A stretch of 32,327 nucleotides of DNA, taken from the NCBI GenBank assembly GCA_020431405.1, contig JAGQIK010000385.1:1-32327 (forward strand). The letters run 5' to 3'. Shown piece by piece: positions 10,853-21,104 of the stretch. Position 1 is the stretch's first letter. Each line of letters starts with the position of its first letter. Under the pieces are notes generated by a model. That model was not told the origin of the DNA. It was given only the letters and a program-made list of their open reading frames with translations, and searched no databases. Source of the stretch: Myxococcales bacterium. GTDB taxonomy: Bacteria > Myxococcota_A > Polyangia > GCA-2747355. The position numbers were made by a program, and so were the translations under genes.

Positions 10853-11989
10853 GTGCCAAGCGATGAGCGCGGTGCCCGCCCCTCCTGGCACGCTGATCCG
10901 GCACGACGCGCCAGCCTCGGCTGGAGCGACTTCTTCGACAAGCAGCTAGCCCGGCTCGAGCGCTCCAAGCGCGAGTCGATGCTGCCCGTGCGTGTGGCGG
11001 CCGAGCACCGCGGCCGCTACGAGATCTGGGGCCACCCTAAAGCGGATCGCGCGCGCCTGGCGGGACGGCTGCGCAAGGACAGCACGCGCGAGCAGCTTCC
11101 GGCCGTTGGCGACTGGGCGCTCGCGCCGCGCCGCGTGCACGGGCTCGCCACGCTGGCGCACGTCTTCGAGCGCCACAGCGCGTTCCTGCGCAAGGCCGCT
11201 GGGCAGGTCACCGAGGCGCAGGTGGTGGCGGCCAACGTCGATACGGTGCTGCTCGTCTGCTCGCTCAACCGCGACTACAGCGCGCGGCGCATCGAGCGCT
11301 ACCTGACGCAGCTCTACGAGAGCGGCGCGCGGCCGGTGGTGGTGCTGAGCAAGGCAGACGTCGCGGCGAGCTCGGCGATCGATGTCGACGCCACCTGCGC
11401 GGAGCTGGCCGCACAGCTCGACATCGAGGTCGTCACCACGCGCACCGACGACCCGGCCAGCATCGAGGCGCTGCGGCGCTTCGCAGGCGACGGCCAAACG
11501 GTCGCGCTGGTGGGATCGTCAGGGGTCGGCAAGTCGACGATCATCAACGCGCTGGTGGGAGAGCAGCTGCTGGCCACCAGCGAAGTGCGCGAGGACGACG
11601 ACCGCGGCCGCCACACCACGCGGCACCGCCAGCTCGTCGCGCTGCCCGAGCGCGCCGGGTTGCTCGTCGACACGCCGGGCATGCGCGAGCTGTCGCTATG
11701 GGACGGCGCCGGTCTGGGCGAAGCCTTCGACGACGTGCTCGCCGTCGCCGCGCGCTGCCACTTTCGCGACTGCAGCCACGAGGGCGAACCCGGCTGCGCC
11801 GTGCCCGACGCGCTCGCCAGCGGCGAGCTCGACGCCGAGCGCTACGAGCATTTTTGCAAGCTCACCGAGGAGGCCGCCACGCAGGCGGCGCGGCGCGAGC
11901 AGCGCGGCTGGAGCGAGGGGCAGCGACCCGGAGAAGCGGGCGCGCGCGGCGGCGGCGCGGGTTGGCGCGAGCTCGAGAAGAAGGACTAG
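10853..11989 (+). CDS. rsgA: Ribosome small-subunit GTPase RsgA (YjeQ family)
   Basis: 378 aa from GTG 10853, preceded by GAGAGGG. RsgA is a circularly permuted GTPase that acts in late 30S maturation. An OB-fold region (residues 43-105) comes first. The permuted order follows: G4 SKAD at 166-169, G1 GSSGVGKS at 221-228, switch region GRHTTRHRQL and G3 DTPG at 273-276. The zinc site is C302, C307, H309 and C315 (CHFRDCSHEGEPGC). The first 20 residues and the charged Gly/Arg-rich tail (about 340-378) extend beyond the core. It follows trxA and is convergent with rodA across a repeat element. Confidence 0.95.
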   Translation: MPSDERGARPSWHADPARRASLGWSDFFDKQLARLERSKRESMLPVRVAAEHRGRYEIWGHPKADRARLAGRLRKDSTREQLPAVGDWALAPRRVHGLATLAHVFERHSAFLRKAAGQVTEAQVVAANVDTVLLVCSLNRDYSARRIERYLTQLYESGARPVVVLSKADVAASSAIDVDATCAELAAQLDIEVVTTRTDDPASIEALRRFAGDGQTVALVGSSGVGKSTIINALVGEQLLATSEVREDDDRGRHTTRHRQLVALPERAGLLVDTPGMRELSLWDGAGLGEAFDDVLAVAARCHFRDCSHEGEPGCAVPDALASGELDAERYEHFCKLTEEAATQAARREQRGWSEGQRPGEAGARGGGAGWRELEKKD

Positions 11990-11992
11990 CAG

Positions 11993-12180
11993 GGCCTCGG
12001 GCCCAGGGCCACGGGCTCAGGGCCACGGGCCACAGGGGTGGCCTGCCAACGTATGGACTCGCGCTTCGCGCTCGACCGTCACGGCCAACCACTGCCTGTG
12101 GCGGCCTCGAACACGCTGCGAAGCGTGCGAGGCGCCCGCGAACGATCCTGTGGCCCGTGGCCTGAAGCCCGTGGCCTCGG
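11993..12180. repeat. Intergenic inverted element A1 with 7-bp units
   Basis: It fills the gap between the converging rsgA and rodA genes. The left arm consists of 7-bp units (GGCCTCG, GGCCCAG, GGCCACG, GGCTCAG, GGCCACG, GGCCACA) and GG. The last four units plus GG (12007-12036, 30 bp) are the inverse of 12147-12176 apart from a one-base shift and one mismatch or so. The 110-bp core begins GGTGGCCTGCCAACG and holds smaller hairpins: TCGCGCTTCGCG near 12058, and CCTCG-aa-CACGCT paired with AGCGTG-CGAGG at 12105-12132. Element A2 at 20065-20203 has the same plan. It may act as a two-way transcript end or a nucleoid/protein binding site. Confidence 0.8.
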
Positions 12181-12190
12181 TCGCCGCAGC

Positions 12191-13285
12191 CTAGAACGAC
12201 GTCTTGCGGATCGAAACGTTCATCAACAGCCCCGCCGCCATCATCATCGTCACCACCGACGATCCGCCGTAGCTCACCAGCGGTAACGTCACGCCCACCA
12301 CCGGCGCCAGGCCGGTGACCATGCCGATGCTGATCACAGCGTGCCAGAAGAACAGCGACGCCACGCCGACGCAGATCACCGCGCCGAAGCGGTCGCGCGC
12401 CTGGGTGCCGATCTTGACGGCCCATAAGATGAAGAACAGGTAGATCGCGAGCATCACGACGCTGCCGAGAAACCCCCACTCCTCACCCCAGACGGCGAAG
12501 GGGAAGTCGGTCCAGCGCTCGGGCAGAAAGTGCAGCTGGTTCTGCGTGCCCTGCATGTAGCCCTTGCCCGAAAAGCCGCCCGATCCGATAGCGAAGAGCG
12601 ACTGGCGCGCTTGCCAGCCGGCGCCCACCGGGTCTGCTGCCGGGTTGAGGAACGTGTAGATGCGCTGCTTCTGGTAGTCCTTGAGCAGGTAAGCCCACGA
12701 CAGCGGCAGCGAGAGCGCCGCGACGGCGACGATCATCAGAATCGAGCGCAGCTTGAGGCGCGTGAGCATCATCACCGAGAGGAAGATCAGGAAGATGATC
12801 AGCGCCGTGCCGAGATCGGGCTGCTTGAGCACCAGGCCCACGGGCAGGCCGACGACCAAGAACGGGATCGCGATGTCTTTGAGCTTGCGCCCCTCGACCA
12901 CCGGATCGTCGTTGAGGTACTTGGCCAGCGCGATCACCAGCAGCACCTTCATCAGCTCCGAAGGCTGTAAGCCGATAAAGCCGACCTGCAGCCAGCGTTG
13001 TGACTGGTTGATGCTCTTGCCGATGACGAGCACCAGCGCCAGCATCACCAGGCCCACGCCATAGAGCGGATAGGCAAAGCGCGCCATCGCTCGGTAGTCG
13101 ATGAGCGCCATCACGAAGAAGGCCACCAGGCCGAAGCCGATCCAGAACAGCTGCTTGCGCACCAGCGTCATCTCGGTGGACGCCGTCGCCGAGTGCAGGT
13201 TGACGACGCCGATCACCGACAGCATCAGCACGCACAGAAACAGCGGCCAGTCGAAGTGCTGTCGCAGCTTGCTGAGCGACCTCAT
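12191..13285 (-). CDS. rodA: Peptidoglycan glycosyltransferase RodA (SEDS family)
   Basis: 364 aa, ten or so membrane segments. RodA polymerises lipid II into glycan strands for lateral wall growth, with PBP2. SEDS features are GLQPSELMKVLLVIALAKYL, GLVLKQPDLGTALIIFLIFL, GGFSGKGYMQGTQNQLHFLPER and TDFPFAVWGEEWGFLG, the last carrying the Asp needed for catalysis in the family. The end has VVGVTLPLVSYGGSS. The ATG overlaps the mrdA stop as ATGA, so the synthase pair is translationally coupled. It is the last gene of the rod-shape cluster, followed by element A1. Confidence 0.97.
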   Translation of the reverse strand: MRSLSKLRQHFDWPLFLCVLMLSVIGVVNLHSATASTEMTLVRKQLFWIGFGLVAFFVMALIDYRAMARFAYPLYGVGLVMLALVLVIGKSINQSQRWLQVGFIGLQPSELMKVLLVIALAKYLNDDPVVEGRKLKDIAIPFLVVGLPVGLVLKQPDLGTALIIFLIFLSVMMLTRLKLRSILMIVAVAALSLPLSWAYLLKDYQKQRIYTFLNPAADPVGAGWQARQSLFAIGSGGFSGKGYMQGTQNQLHFLPERWTDFPFAVWGEEWGFLGSVVMLAIYLFFILWAVKIGTQARDRFGAVICVGVASLFFWHAVISIGMVTGLAPVVGVTLPLVSYGGSSVVTMMMAAGLLMNVSIRKTSF

Positions 13286-16766: not shown

Positions 16767-16915
16767 GGCCACGGGCCACCGGCCACAGGCCACGGGACGG
16801 GCACGGGCGCGTTTGTTGCGGCCGGCAGCCCAGCGGCGAGAACGCCCGCCGAGTCTTAGCGGGAGGAGTGGAGCGAGCGCAGCGAGCGCAACGGCCGCTA
16901 TAGCGAAGGCGACCC
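16767..16915. repeat. Intergenic element B1 between mreB and mreC
   Basis: One arm of four 7-bp units plus GG (GGCCACG, GGCCACC, GGCCACA, GGCCACG; 16767-16796) matches the arm plan of elements A1 and A2, but no inverted partner arm is present. Downstream is the block GCCCAGCGGCGAG-aa-CGCCCGCC (16828-16850), of which 21 of 23 bases recur in B2. It also contains repeats of AGCGAGCGC (16872-16889) and a perfect palindrome, CGCTATAGCG (16896-16905). No gene is seen in this 261-bp gap. Confidence 0.7.
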
Positions 16916-18328: not shown

Positions 18329-20044
18329 ATGCTCGACGTGATGCGCAAGCATTCGCGGTCGTTTTTGATCTACGTCTTCTTCGGCATCATCATCGCCGTC
18401 TTCGTCATCAACTTCGGCCCGCAGTCGGCCGGCTGCGTGACGAGCGGGACGAGCTACGCCGGAACCGTCACCGGACAGCGCATCTCCATCGCCGACTTCG
18501 AGTACGCGCAGTCGGTGCTGGGCCTGCGCCAGCGCCAGGGCTCGGAGCAGCAGCTCGTGCAGCTGCGCAAGATGGTGATGGATCGCCTGATCGCGCGCGA
18601 GCTGCTGGCCAAGCGCGCGCTCGACATGGGCTACAAGATCCCGATCAAAGAGATCCGCGACATGATCTTCTCTGGCCGCTATCTCGCCCTCGGCCAGCCG
18701 CGGCCGCTGATCCGCGGCGAGGACGGCGCCTTCGACTACAGCCGCTTCTCGCGCTACGTGCGCTACTACTGGGGCCTCAACGTCAAGCGCTTCCAGGATC
18801 AACAGCGGCGCGAGCTGCTCGCCGACAAGATGCGCAAGTACCTCGAGACCGTCGTGCGCGTCTCGGAGGACGAGGTCAAGACGGACTGGGTCTTCCGCAA
18901 CACCAAGGTCAAGCTCGCCTACGTGCGCTTCTCGCCGGGCGACTACAAGAGCAACGCGGGCGACGCGAGCGCCCTCGCCGACTGGAAGACGAAGAACAAG
19001 GCGCGCATCGCCGCCTACTACAAGGCCAACAAGAGCAGCTTCAGCAAGCTGCCCGAGCAGCTGCTGCTGCGCGTGATCGAGCTCAAGTTCAAGAGCGGCG
19101 ACAAGAAGGCGCAGGCCGCGGCGAAGAAGAAGGCCGCCGCGCTGCTCGCCAAGCTCAAGGCCGGCGGCGACTTCGCCAAGATCGCGTCGGAGAGCTCGGA
19201 GCACGAGAGCAAGAGCAAGGGCGGGCTCGTCGGCTGGCGCAACGCGAGCGACCCCGGCATCGGCAAGGAAGCGTCGAAGGCCGTCGCCAAGCTGAAGAAG
19301 GACCAGCTCAGCGCGCTCGTCGCCGAGACCGACCGCTTCGTCATCGCGCGCGTGGACGGCAAGCGCAAAGGCGACCTCACGCTCGCGCAGGCCGAGGACG
19401 AGATCGCGCGCAAGCTGTTCGCCGAGAGCGGCGCCAAAGGGCAAGCGATGGCCGAGGCGAAGAAGTACCTCGCGCGCGCCACGGCGGGCGAGAAGCTGAG
19501 CGAGATCTTCACCTACGACGGCACCCTCGACGAGGGCGACGACGACAAGAAGAAGAAGGCGGCCGGCGACAAGAGCGACGGCGACGACAGCAAGGCGCAG
19601 AAGAGCGACAAGAAGGTGCAGACCACCAACCTCTTCACGCGCAACGCCGCCGGCCTGATCCCGCGCCTCGGCATCTCGAAGCCGCTCAGCGACGAGGTCT
19701 TCAAGCTCGGCGCCGGCAGCGTCGTGCCGCACGTCGTGTCCATCGGCAAGCTGCTCTACATCGTCAAGGTTATCGAGCGGAAGAACGCCGACCTCGGCGA
19801 GTGGACCAAGCGCCGCGACGACCTCGTCGAGGCCTTCGCGAACCGCAAGCAGGCCGAGTTCGTGCGCAAGTACACCTACGACCTGTGCAAGGCGGCCGAG
19901 AAGAAGAAGCTGATCAGCATCGAGTCCTCGGTCTTCTTCACGCGCGGCTACCTCGCAGGGCAGCGCAAGGCCGGCAAGAAGGTCACCATGCCCGCCTACG
20001 AGCCGTGCAAGACGATCGAGCCGCGGCCGATGCCGCTCTTCTGA
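18329..20044 (+). CDS. PpiD/SurA-like periplasmic peptidyl-prolyl isomerase
   Basis: 571 aa from ATG 18329, with GGAG 6 nt upstream. One N-terminal anchor (FLIYVFFGIIIAVFVINFG, residues 12-30) places the rest in the periplasm, as in PpiD. Residues 34-200 form a SurA-type chaperone region (GQRISIADFEYAQ, LIARELLAKRALDMG). A parvulin domain follows at about 243-345 (ALLAKLKAGGDFAKIASE, KGGLVGWRNASDPGIGKE). Residues 400-432 are an Asp/Lys-rich linker, and then a helical C-terminal part resumes. It should assist outer-membrane or secreted protein folding. Although PpiD-like, it is not certain that it is the PpiD orthologue. Confidence 0.9.
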   Translation: MLDVMRKHSRSFLIYVFFGIIIAVFVINFGPQSAGCVTSGTSYAGTVTGQRISIADFEYAQSVLGLRQRQGSEQQLVQLRKMVMDRLIARELLAKRALDMGYKIPIKEIRDMIFSGRYLALGQPRPLIRGEDGAFDYSRFSRYVRYYWGLNVKRFQDQQRRELLADKMRKYLETVVRVSEDEVKTDWVFRNTKVKLAYVRFSPGDYKSNAGDASALADWKTKNKARIAAYYKANKSSFSKLPEQLLLRVIELKFKSGDKKAQAAAKKKAAALLAKLKAGGDFAKIASESSEHESKSKGGLVGWRNASDPGIGKEASKAVAKLKKDQLSALVAETDRFVIARVDGKRKGDLTLAQAEDEIARKLFAESGAKGQAMAEAKKYLARATAGEKLSEIFTYDGTLDEGDDDKKKKAAGDKSDGDDSKAQKSDKKVQTTNLFTRNAAGLIPRLGISKPLSDEVFKLGAGSVVPHVVSIGKLLYIVKVIERKNADLGEWTKRRDDLVEAFANRKQAEFVRKYTYDLCKAAEKKKLISIESSVFFTRGYLAGQRKAGKKVTMPAYEPCKTIEPRPMPLF

Positions 20045-20064: not shown

Positions 20065-20203
20065 GGCCTCGGGCCTCGGGCCTCGGGCTTCAGGGGTGGC
20101 CTTCCAGCGCAGTGCTCGCTTCGCGGCGGCACTGGCAGAACCGCGACGCGCGAAGCGCGAGCCTACGGCGCGACCTGAAGCCTGAAGCCTGAAGCCCGAG
20201 GCC
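20065..20203. repeat. Intergenic inverted element A2 with 7-bp units
   Basis: It fills the gap between the converging ppiD-like and fpg-like genes. The left arm (20065-20094) is GGCCTCG three times, GGCTTCA and GG. The right arm (20174-20203), read inverted, is GGCCTCG, GGCTTCA three times and GG, so the 30-bp arms match at 26 positions. The 79-bp core starts GGTGGCCTTCCAGCG, nearly as in A1, and contains an inner inverted pair (CTCGCTTCGCG near 20115, CGCGAAGCGCGAG near 20149). Arm length and unit number equal those of A1, though unit sequences differ. Confidence 0.8.
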
Positions 20204-20225: not shown

Positions 20226-21104
20226 TCAGCGCTGCGTCTTGCGCCAGTCGACGATGCTGCTGCCGCGCCCATCGGGCTGGCAGCTCGGACAGAAGTACGC
20301 GTCGTAGCCGCGCACGCCAGCGCGACGGATCTTGGCGCCGCAGCGCGGGCACGGATCGCCGTGGCGGCGTCTGACCTTGAGGAAGTCGCGCACCTTCTCG
20401 TCGAGCGGCGGCGCGCGGCGCGCGATCTCTTTGCACGCCGAGTCGATGACCTCGACGATGGCGTCGTGCAGCATATCGATCTGCTCGGGCGAGAGCTTGC
20501 GCACGAAGGTCTTGGGGTGGATGCCGGCGGCGAAGAGCACCTCGTCGGCGTAAGCGTTGCCGAGCGAGTCGATGGCGGCCTTGTCCATCAGAAACACGCG
20601 CACCTGATCGCGGCGCTTGGCGGCGAGCTCGCGGAAGCGCTCGCGCGTGAACGCTTCGCCGAGCACGTCGACACCCTCGGCTGAAAAGCCGGGCACCTTG
20701 TCGTGGTCGTCGCGCGCGATGACGTAGACCTTCCCCATCTGGCGGTCGTCGCGGTAGCGCAGCTCGCGGCCGTCATCGAGCGCGAGCACCAGCGCTACGT
20801 CGGCGCGCCGCTTCTGCCCCTTGTCCTTGATCTCGAAGCGCCCAGCGAGCATCGGCGAGACGATGATCTCGCCGGCGGCGCCCGCGGCGCGCTGCTTTTT
20901 GGTCGTCTTCAGCGCGAGCCGCACGAAGTGCGCTCGGCGCGTGACGTCCTCGATGCGGCGACCGGACAACAGCTCGTTAGCCGCGCCCTGCACCGCCAGG
21001 CGCATCACCACCGGGTTGAGCACCTCCGCGCCCTCGATAGTGCGCCCGACGACCTCCTCGTGCAGCCGCGGAACGACGTACTCGAGGTCCGGACGTTCGG
21101 GCAT
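20226..21104 (-). CDS. Divergent Fpg/Nei-family DNA glycosylase
   Basis: 292 aa from ATG 21104 (MPERPDLEYV); the open frame extends far upstream but is non-coding there. Fpg enzymes remove oxidised purines and nick the abasic site. The N-terminal Pro-Glu nucleophile pair is kept, as are MDKAAIDSLGNAYADEVLFAAGIHP with the DNA-binding Asn, and a zinc finger CPRCGAKI ... YFCPSCQ. Two usual catalytic or DNA-contact residues differ: the beta-hairpin Lys57 of RRAKY is His in RRAHF, and the zinc-finger Arg is Tyr in GYDAYFC. Specificity or activity may therefore differ from MutM, and the symbol mutM/fpg is withheld. It starts 17 bp after the GIDE-domain gene. Confidence 0.88.
   Translation of the reverse strand: MPERPDLEYVVPRLHEEVVGRTIEGAEVLNPVVMRLAVQGAANELLSGRRIEDVTRRAHFVRLALKTTKKQRAAGAAGEIIVSPMLAGRFEIKDKGQKRRADVALVLALDDGRELRYRDDRQMGKVYVIARDDHDKVPGFSAEGVDVLGEAFTRERFRELAAKRRDQVRVFLMDKAAIDSLGNAYADEVLFAAGIHPKTFVRKLSPEQIDMLHDAIVEVIDSACKEIARRAPPLDEKVRDFLKVRRRHGDPCPRCGAKIRRAGVRGYDAYFCPSCQPDGRGSSIVDWRKTQR

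Follow-up and report, generated by a model that had tools for sequence, protein, structure and literature searches.

Heptamer-armed inverted elements of a Myxococcales genome: probable geneless relatives of elements that carry an S23/IVP gene

The two inverted elements A1 and A2, found in the 32,327-nucleotide stretch of Myxococcales DNA analyzed here (the window, contig 163 in a draft genome of 11.2 Mb), are probably geneless relatives, nonautonomous and MITE-like, of heptamer-armed elements that carry a gene of the S23 family. They belong to a repeat family in which the orientation of the arms, the polarity of the ends, and the gene context could each be established directly, as could the link between PF05635 genes and inverted heptamer arms.

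The window contains two elements with inverted 30-bp arms, each of four 7-mers plus GG, as an earlier note on this DNA had described (Table 1). Both contain the inner GCTTCGC/GCGAAGC pair that it had pointed out, and both lie between converging genes, A1 between the rsgA-like and rodA-like genes and A2 between the SurA-N/rotamase and formamidopyrimidine-DNA glycosylase genes. The arms follow the formula four heptamers GGC[CT][TA]C[GA] plus GG, with a single exception in unit two of the A1 left arm, GGCTCAG; the description of the A1 units as GGCCACG needs correcting here, since this unit is not of the GGCCAC type. The core start GGTGGCCT(G/T)CCA(A/G)CG, which had been given as a shared feature, is indeed common to A1 and A2 but is no family trait: these two are its sole exact matches in the genome, and the inner sequence of most copies differs from it, e.g., ATCGnnCGCGAGCGCnnTGCACGCTTCGC. 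In RNA folding, A1 and A2 are much more stable than shuffled sequences (z of -6.5 and -4.8, respectively). No partner was detected for the solitary third arm.

Table 1. Positions of elements A1 and A2, their parts, and neighboring features in the window
Feature	Position	Strand	Description	Basis
rsgA-like GTPase gene	10853..11989	+	Ends before A1	Pfam PF03193
Two degenerate heptamers	11993..12006	+	GGCCTCG GGCCCAG, ahead of A1 left arm	Sequence
A1, whole element	12007..12176			
A1 left arm	12007..12036	+	GGCCACG GGCTCAG GGCCACG GGCCACA GG	Pattern scan
A1 core	12037..12146	.	110 bp; inner GCTTCGC 12063-12069, GCGAAGC 12118-12124	
A1 right arm	12147..12176	-	Minus-strand units GGCCACG GGCTTCA GGCCACG GGCCACA GG	
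rodA-like gene	12191..13285	-	Ends after A1, convergent	Pfam PF01098
Solitary third arm	16767..16796	+	GGCCACG GGCCACC GGCCACA GGCCACG GG; mreC/mreB gap, upstream of mreB	
SurA-N/rotamase (PpiD-like) gene	18329..20044	+	Ends before A2	Pfam PF13624, PF13145
A2, whole element	20065..20203			
A2 left arm	20065..20094	+	GGCCTCG x3, GGCTTCA, GG	Pattern scan
A2 core	20095..20173	.	79 bp; inner GCTTCGC 20118-20124, GCGAAGC 20150-20156	
Conserved type I right end in A2 core	within 20095..20173	.	GCGCGAAGCGCGAGCCTACGGCGCGACC	
A2 right arm	20174..20203	-	Minus-strand units GGCCTCG, GGCTTCA x3, GG	
Formamidopyrimidine-DNA glycosylase gene	20226..21104	-	Ends after A2, convergent	Pfam PF01149, PF06831

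A scan of the whole genome with the arm pattern gave 450 positions, longer arrays being counted more than once, against 7 for a reversed control pattern. With A2 as the query, BLAST returned 105 genome matches, and the type I covariance model returned 113, a figure that counts both strands and includes many places matched on both. An arm profile run over 1.9 Mb of fetched DNA detected 66 inward-facing pairs and 70 single arms; neighboring arms faced inward in 67 cases and outward in 0. The same profile found 0 arms in 1 Mb of simulated Markov sequence. This sampling in depth covered one genome, with genes predicted by a simple gene caller of our own making. An unbiased sample of 0.54 Mb held 6 pairs and 8 singles, which suggests a genome total of about 125 pairs and some 170 further arms, a rough estimate from small counts. 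Four units is by far the commonest array length (109 arrays, versus 18 with three units and 7 with five). The further copies that the earlier note had thought worth seeking thus exist, as a dispersed intergenic family of a few hundred, and the counts from the control pattern and the Markov sequence put the arms far above chance.

The cores of the family are homologous along their full length and fall into two subfamilies. Type I, to which A2 belongs, has GGCCTCG/GGCTTCA arms, the left end ATCGCnnCGCGAGCGCnTTGCACGCTTCGCAG, and the right end CTGCGAAGCGCGAAGCGCGAGCCTACGGCGCGACC, which is also found alone. Type II, to which A1 belongs, has GGCCACG/GGCCACA arms and inner ends related to those of type I, and it is polar, with GGCTCA in unit two of exactly one arm in 26 of 37 elements.

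The agreement between the two arms of an element had been taken as co-variation and hence as a mark of selection on pairing or of copying between arms. We compared the real arm pairs of 64 elements with random re-pairings by counting mismatches. Over all 64 elements, own arms differed at 4.58 positions versus 5.81 at random, because the subfamilies differ from each other. Within the GGCCAC (AA) subfamily, the arms match worse than random (4.49 mismatches versus 3.72 shuffled, with 4989 of 5000 shuffles at or below the real value), because the ends are polar and one arm carries GGCTCAG; within the GGCYTC (TT) subfamily, they match no better than random (4.15 versus 4.44). Arm types therefore agree between subfamilies only, with no excess match inside either, so that the argument for pairing selection or copying between arms fails; common descent explains the likeness. 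A structured RNA kept by co-variation is likewise unsupported, since the compensatory stem changes expected of an Rfam-like RNA did not appear among the 64 arm pairs and an Rfam scan of the window gave no match.

For 62 pairs, both neighboring genes are known: 35 pairs lie between convergent genes, 24 between tandem genes, and 3 between divergent genes, whereas the background of all neighboring gene pairs is 17% convergent, 66% tandem, and 17% divergent (P = 1.5e-12 for the convergent excess). The convergent setting noticed for A1 and A2 is thus enriched across the copies. It has to be asked whether these are two-way terminators or 3'-end stabilizers, kept for that role between converging genes and spread by domestication. 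Besides the convergent excess and the avoidance of divergent pairs, this would suit the 12 of 35 convergent cases in which 15 bp or less are left to either stop codon, the long stable hairpins of A1 and A2, and the bases that flank the arms, A in front and T behind in roughly half of the cases. The A/T bias is limited to the first one or two positions, however, so that there is no U-tract of the kind that follows the GC hairpin of an intrinsic terminator, and a terminator scan of the window gave no match. Moreover, the 24 pairs between tandem genes do not suit such a role, pairing is not selected within subfamilies, and damage to promoters explains the shortage at divergent pairs equally well. 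We regard the terminator role as unlikely.

PF05635 is the S23, or 23S-rRNA intervening-sequence protein, family, a four-helix bundle whose fold has been solved. In the related genome G113, two copies with GGCTTCA arms each enclose a PF05635 open reading frame (E value, 3e-25); the copies lie in opposite orientations and, measured from arm to arm, share 94% identity over 427 bp. In the source genome, the best of nine PF05635 matches (C77) lies directly between GGCCTCG arms. It is the only one of the nine with arms on both sides, and none of the nine has GGCCAC arms around the gene. Loci L305 to L311 of the source genome form a divergent PF05635 group with a common upstream hairpin (GCGCATCAGGCGCGCCAGCCCAGCG and its complement), followed in several members by hexamer arrays, e.g., CCGAAT/CCGAGC, and in L308 by a GGCAGTC heptamer array; this group looks like another multicopy element.

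The association extends to 52 loci from named genomes that were picked by protein similarity alone. Period-7 arrays were sought within 300 bp of the gene and in control windows 800 to 1100 bp away, and they occurred in 19 left and 21 right flanks (40 of 104) versus 1 and 1 (2 of 104) in the controls (P = 6e-12). Other periods from 3 to 13 occurred in at most 3 flanks each, and a period of 14 is a harmonic of 7. Where both flanks carry an array (21 loci), the unit on one side is an inverted copy of that on the other, identical at 6.5 of 7 positions versus 4.3 when re-paired. The heptamer is particular to the lineage (GGCTTCA in Myxococcales, TAGTGGA in a Dehalococcoidia MAG, GTTGATA in a Verrucomicrobiia MAG, and TAGTGGG in a Planctomycetaceae MAG), and several phyla are represented among the S23 genes with heptamer arrays. 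Several of the 52 loci share a genome; a hand count by accession prefix places two-sided arrays in about 14 of 37 genomes. The result held in a second sample, made up of 3 viral loci and 14 loci from plasmids, most of them cyanobacterial, with arrays in 15 of 34 flanks versus 1 of 34.

One Myxococcales MAG contains at least 10 copies, with 85 to 96% identity. The similarity among Myxococcales copies extends about 60 to 70 bp past the left arm and about 26 bp past the right, and the arms there are therefore subterminal. On cyanobacterial plasmids (L370, L371, L374, and L375), the S23/four-helix-bundle gene stands within cas and nrd clusters, namely, between cas10 and cmr3, between cas6 and cas4, and, reversed, between nrdB and nrdA, positions as expected of an insertion. 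We found no text linking heptamer repeats with an S23/IVP gene among open-access texts, a result that does not prove novelty.

None of 38 other genomes from the family, order, and class contains exact GGCCAC arms, and an exact-arm scan of named genomes gave no match. Of 290 genomes in the class, 18 (the source genome among them), scattered across many families, have four-unit GGCYTC arms; elsewhere in the class these arms enclose unrelated cores, and an inverted partner is often present. A search among close relatives for an empty counterpart of the A1 site found none; the rsgA/rodA neighborhood of A1 is not kept in the nearest genomes, being absent in G003, while in G001 the contig ends beside rodA. 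At that contig end, in this relative from the same family (L268, 1-130), a tandem 16-bp repeat, AGTTCGGGATTCCAGC, adjoins rodA. In genome G165 (L278, 1501-2070), heptamer arms about 500 bp apart surround a glyoxalase-like open reading frame, with no S23 gene.

In many bacteria, heptamers outnumber every other class of long simple repeat (Mrazek 2007, as cited in PMC4679880), and some arrays of the present family reach 8 to 12 units. Ordinary heptanucleotide repeats from polymerase slippage, with inverted partners arising via template switching and no mobile element involved, could produce such arrays. They would not, however, be expected to show the sharp four-unit length peak, dispersed cores homologous along their length, polar ends, or arrays around PF05635 genes in many phyla, and we consider this origin quite improbable.

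The family also resembles REPIN/RAYT systems in its inverted doublets and singlets between genes and in the presence of RAYT genes in the genome (PMC3116915, PMC2817692). REPIN-like elements moved by the genome's own RAYT/Y1 transposases are nevertheless a very unlikely explanation. The genome does hold 12 Y1_Tnp genes, and the 3' end of the RAYT gene at L043 abuts a type I end, while L038 lies beside such an element. Apart from these two contacts, though, the RAYT genes are not flanked by arms; the long inverted ends of the RAYT elements themselves are of a different kind; the RAYT end motif is near arms in 1 of 11 cases; and the arms are tandem heptamers rather than a short palindrome flanked by GTAG. 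The twelve Y1_Tnp (RAYT-like) genes (L255 to L266) include several nearly identical 232-aa copies, and many lie at contig ends. Positions 1-420 of L043 are a repeat mosaic, in which the RAYT gene end passes straight into the right end of a type I element, after which come a type II arm and an apparent RAYT-element end.

It is highly improbable that the arms are G-quadruplex elements of the type suggested for the four-unit GGGAATC repeats in Xanthomonas and Nostoc. The four-unit preference and the heptad spacing of G-tracts agree with that proposal (PMC4692102), but a canonical G3 motif occurs in only 15 of the 128 paired arms and, when all arms are counted, in 35 of 202; in about half of the cases the unit ends in A, which leaves GG. 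With 88% of paired arms lacking the motif, quadruplexes cannot explain the four-unit length in general.

Apart from quadruplexes, the likeness to those repeats is close. For the heptamers of Xanthomonas (GGGNATC) and Nostoc (GGGGA(C/T)T), Rehm et al. (2015; PMC4692102) suggested a G-quadruplex role and detected no mobile elements. Their repeats share with the present family the heptads, the four-unit preference, the dispersed intergenic distribution, many convergent inverted pairs, a position close to stop codons, and rarity between divergent genes. In contrast, the heptamer is a different one, most arms here cannot form G3 quadruplexes, and our family has conserved polar cores in two subfamilies; 56% of its pairs lie between convergent genes versus 16% in their study, which connects the repeats with neither a gene nor mobile elements. 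The A1/A2 family is thus a variant of this kind by architecture and not as a quadruplex element, because the G3 motif is found in only those 15 of 128 arms.

Of the three options that the earlier note had raised for A1 and A2, the small mobile repeat fits best. The few hundred dispersed intergenic copies, the polar ends, and the homologous cores favor it, as do the related heptamer-armed elements elsewhere that carry a gene and occur in near-identical copies; target duplication did not bear it out, as duplications of 3 to 10 bp showed no excess over shuffled flanks. Terminal inverted repeats, no gene, and many dispersed copies are features that the family shares with MITEs, and like the type II MITEs of Anabaena sp. 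90 (PMC3542288) it consists of short, geneless intergenic elements with inverted ends. It differs from these in its heptamer-array ends, and neither a target duplication nor a transposase with matching ends was seen; no transposase or other enzyme tied to the arms was found. The candidate autonomous partner with the same ends is the PF05635 element with GGCCTCG arms, whose gene is no known transposase. A1 and A2 have the heptamer arms and lack the PF05635 gene, and we saw no clear resemblance between the geneless cores and the subterminal sequence of the element that carries the gene.

If A1 and A2 are geneless relatives of the S23-type elements, a shared machinery acting through the arms would move both the gene-bearing and the geneless forms. 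A possible model is the intervening sequence of Coxiella 23S rRNA, an element of 428 nucleotides with a 28-bp terminal stem, an S23p open reading frame, and internal heptameric direct repeats, which is cut by RNase III (PMC4990558). The gene-bearing heptamer-armed elements share with it a length of about 430 nucleotides, matched by the 427-bp copies of G113, inverted ends, and a PF05635 protein (PMC4990558), while A1 and A2 contain no gene and occupy gaps between protein-coding genes rather than sites in rRNA. Because four heptamers amount to 28 bp, the same as the Coxiella terminal stem, we propose that the arms may be intervening-sequence-type stems and A1 and A2 forms without the gene. By analogy with 23S rRNA intervening sequences, the arms would pair in a transcript as a duplex of about 28 to 30 bp that RNase III could excise or process, and such processing would make intergenic insertions nearly harmless, above all at converging 3' ends.

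A broader reading, in which the inverted lineage-specific heptamer arrays are the ends of one widespread mobile class carrying an S23/IVP gene, and the long-known unexplained heptanucleotide repeats of cyanobacteria, xanthomonads, and others are its ends and geneless offspring, has in our judgment an even chance of being right. Heptamer repeats, which in many bacterial genomes are more frequent than any other long simple repeat, have to our knowledge no established function or origin, and we know of no function for the S23/IVP family despite its solved fold. If the broader reading is true, the heptamer period, the length of four units, and the pairing of inverted arrays would be accounted for without G-quadruplexes. 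Tying the heptamer repeats to the S23/IVP gene would then turn two open questions into one, namely, whether the protein acts on the ends, as DNA or as RNA.
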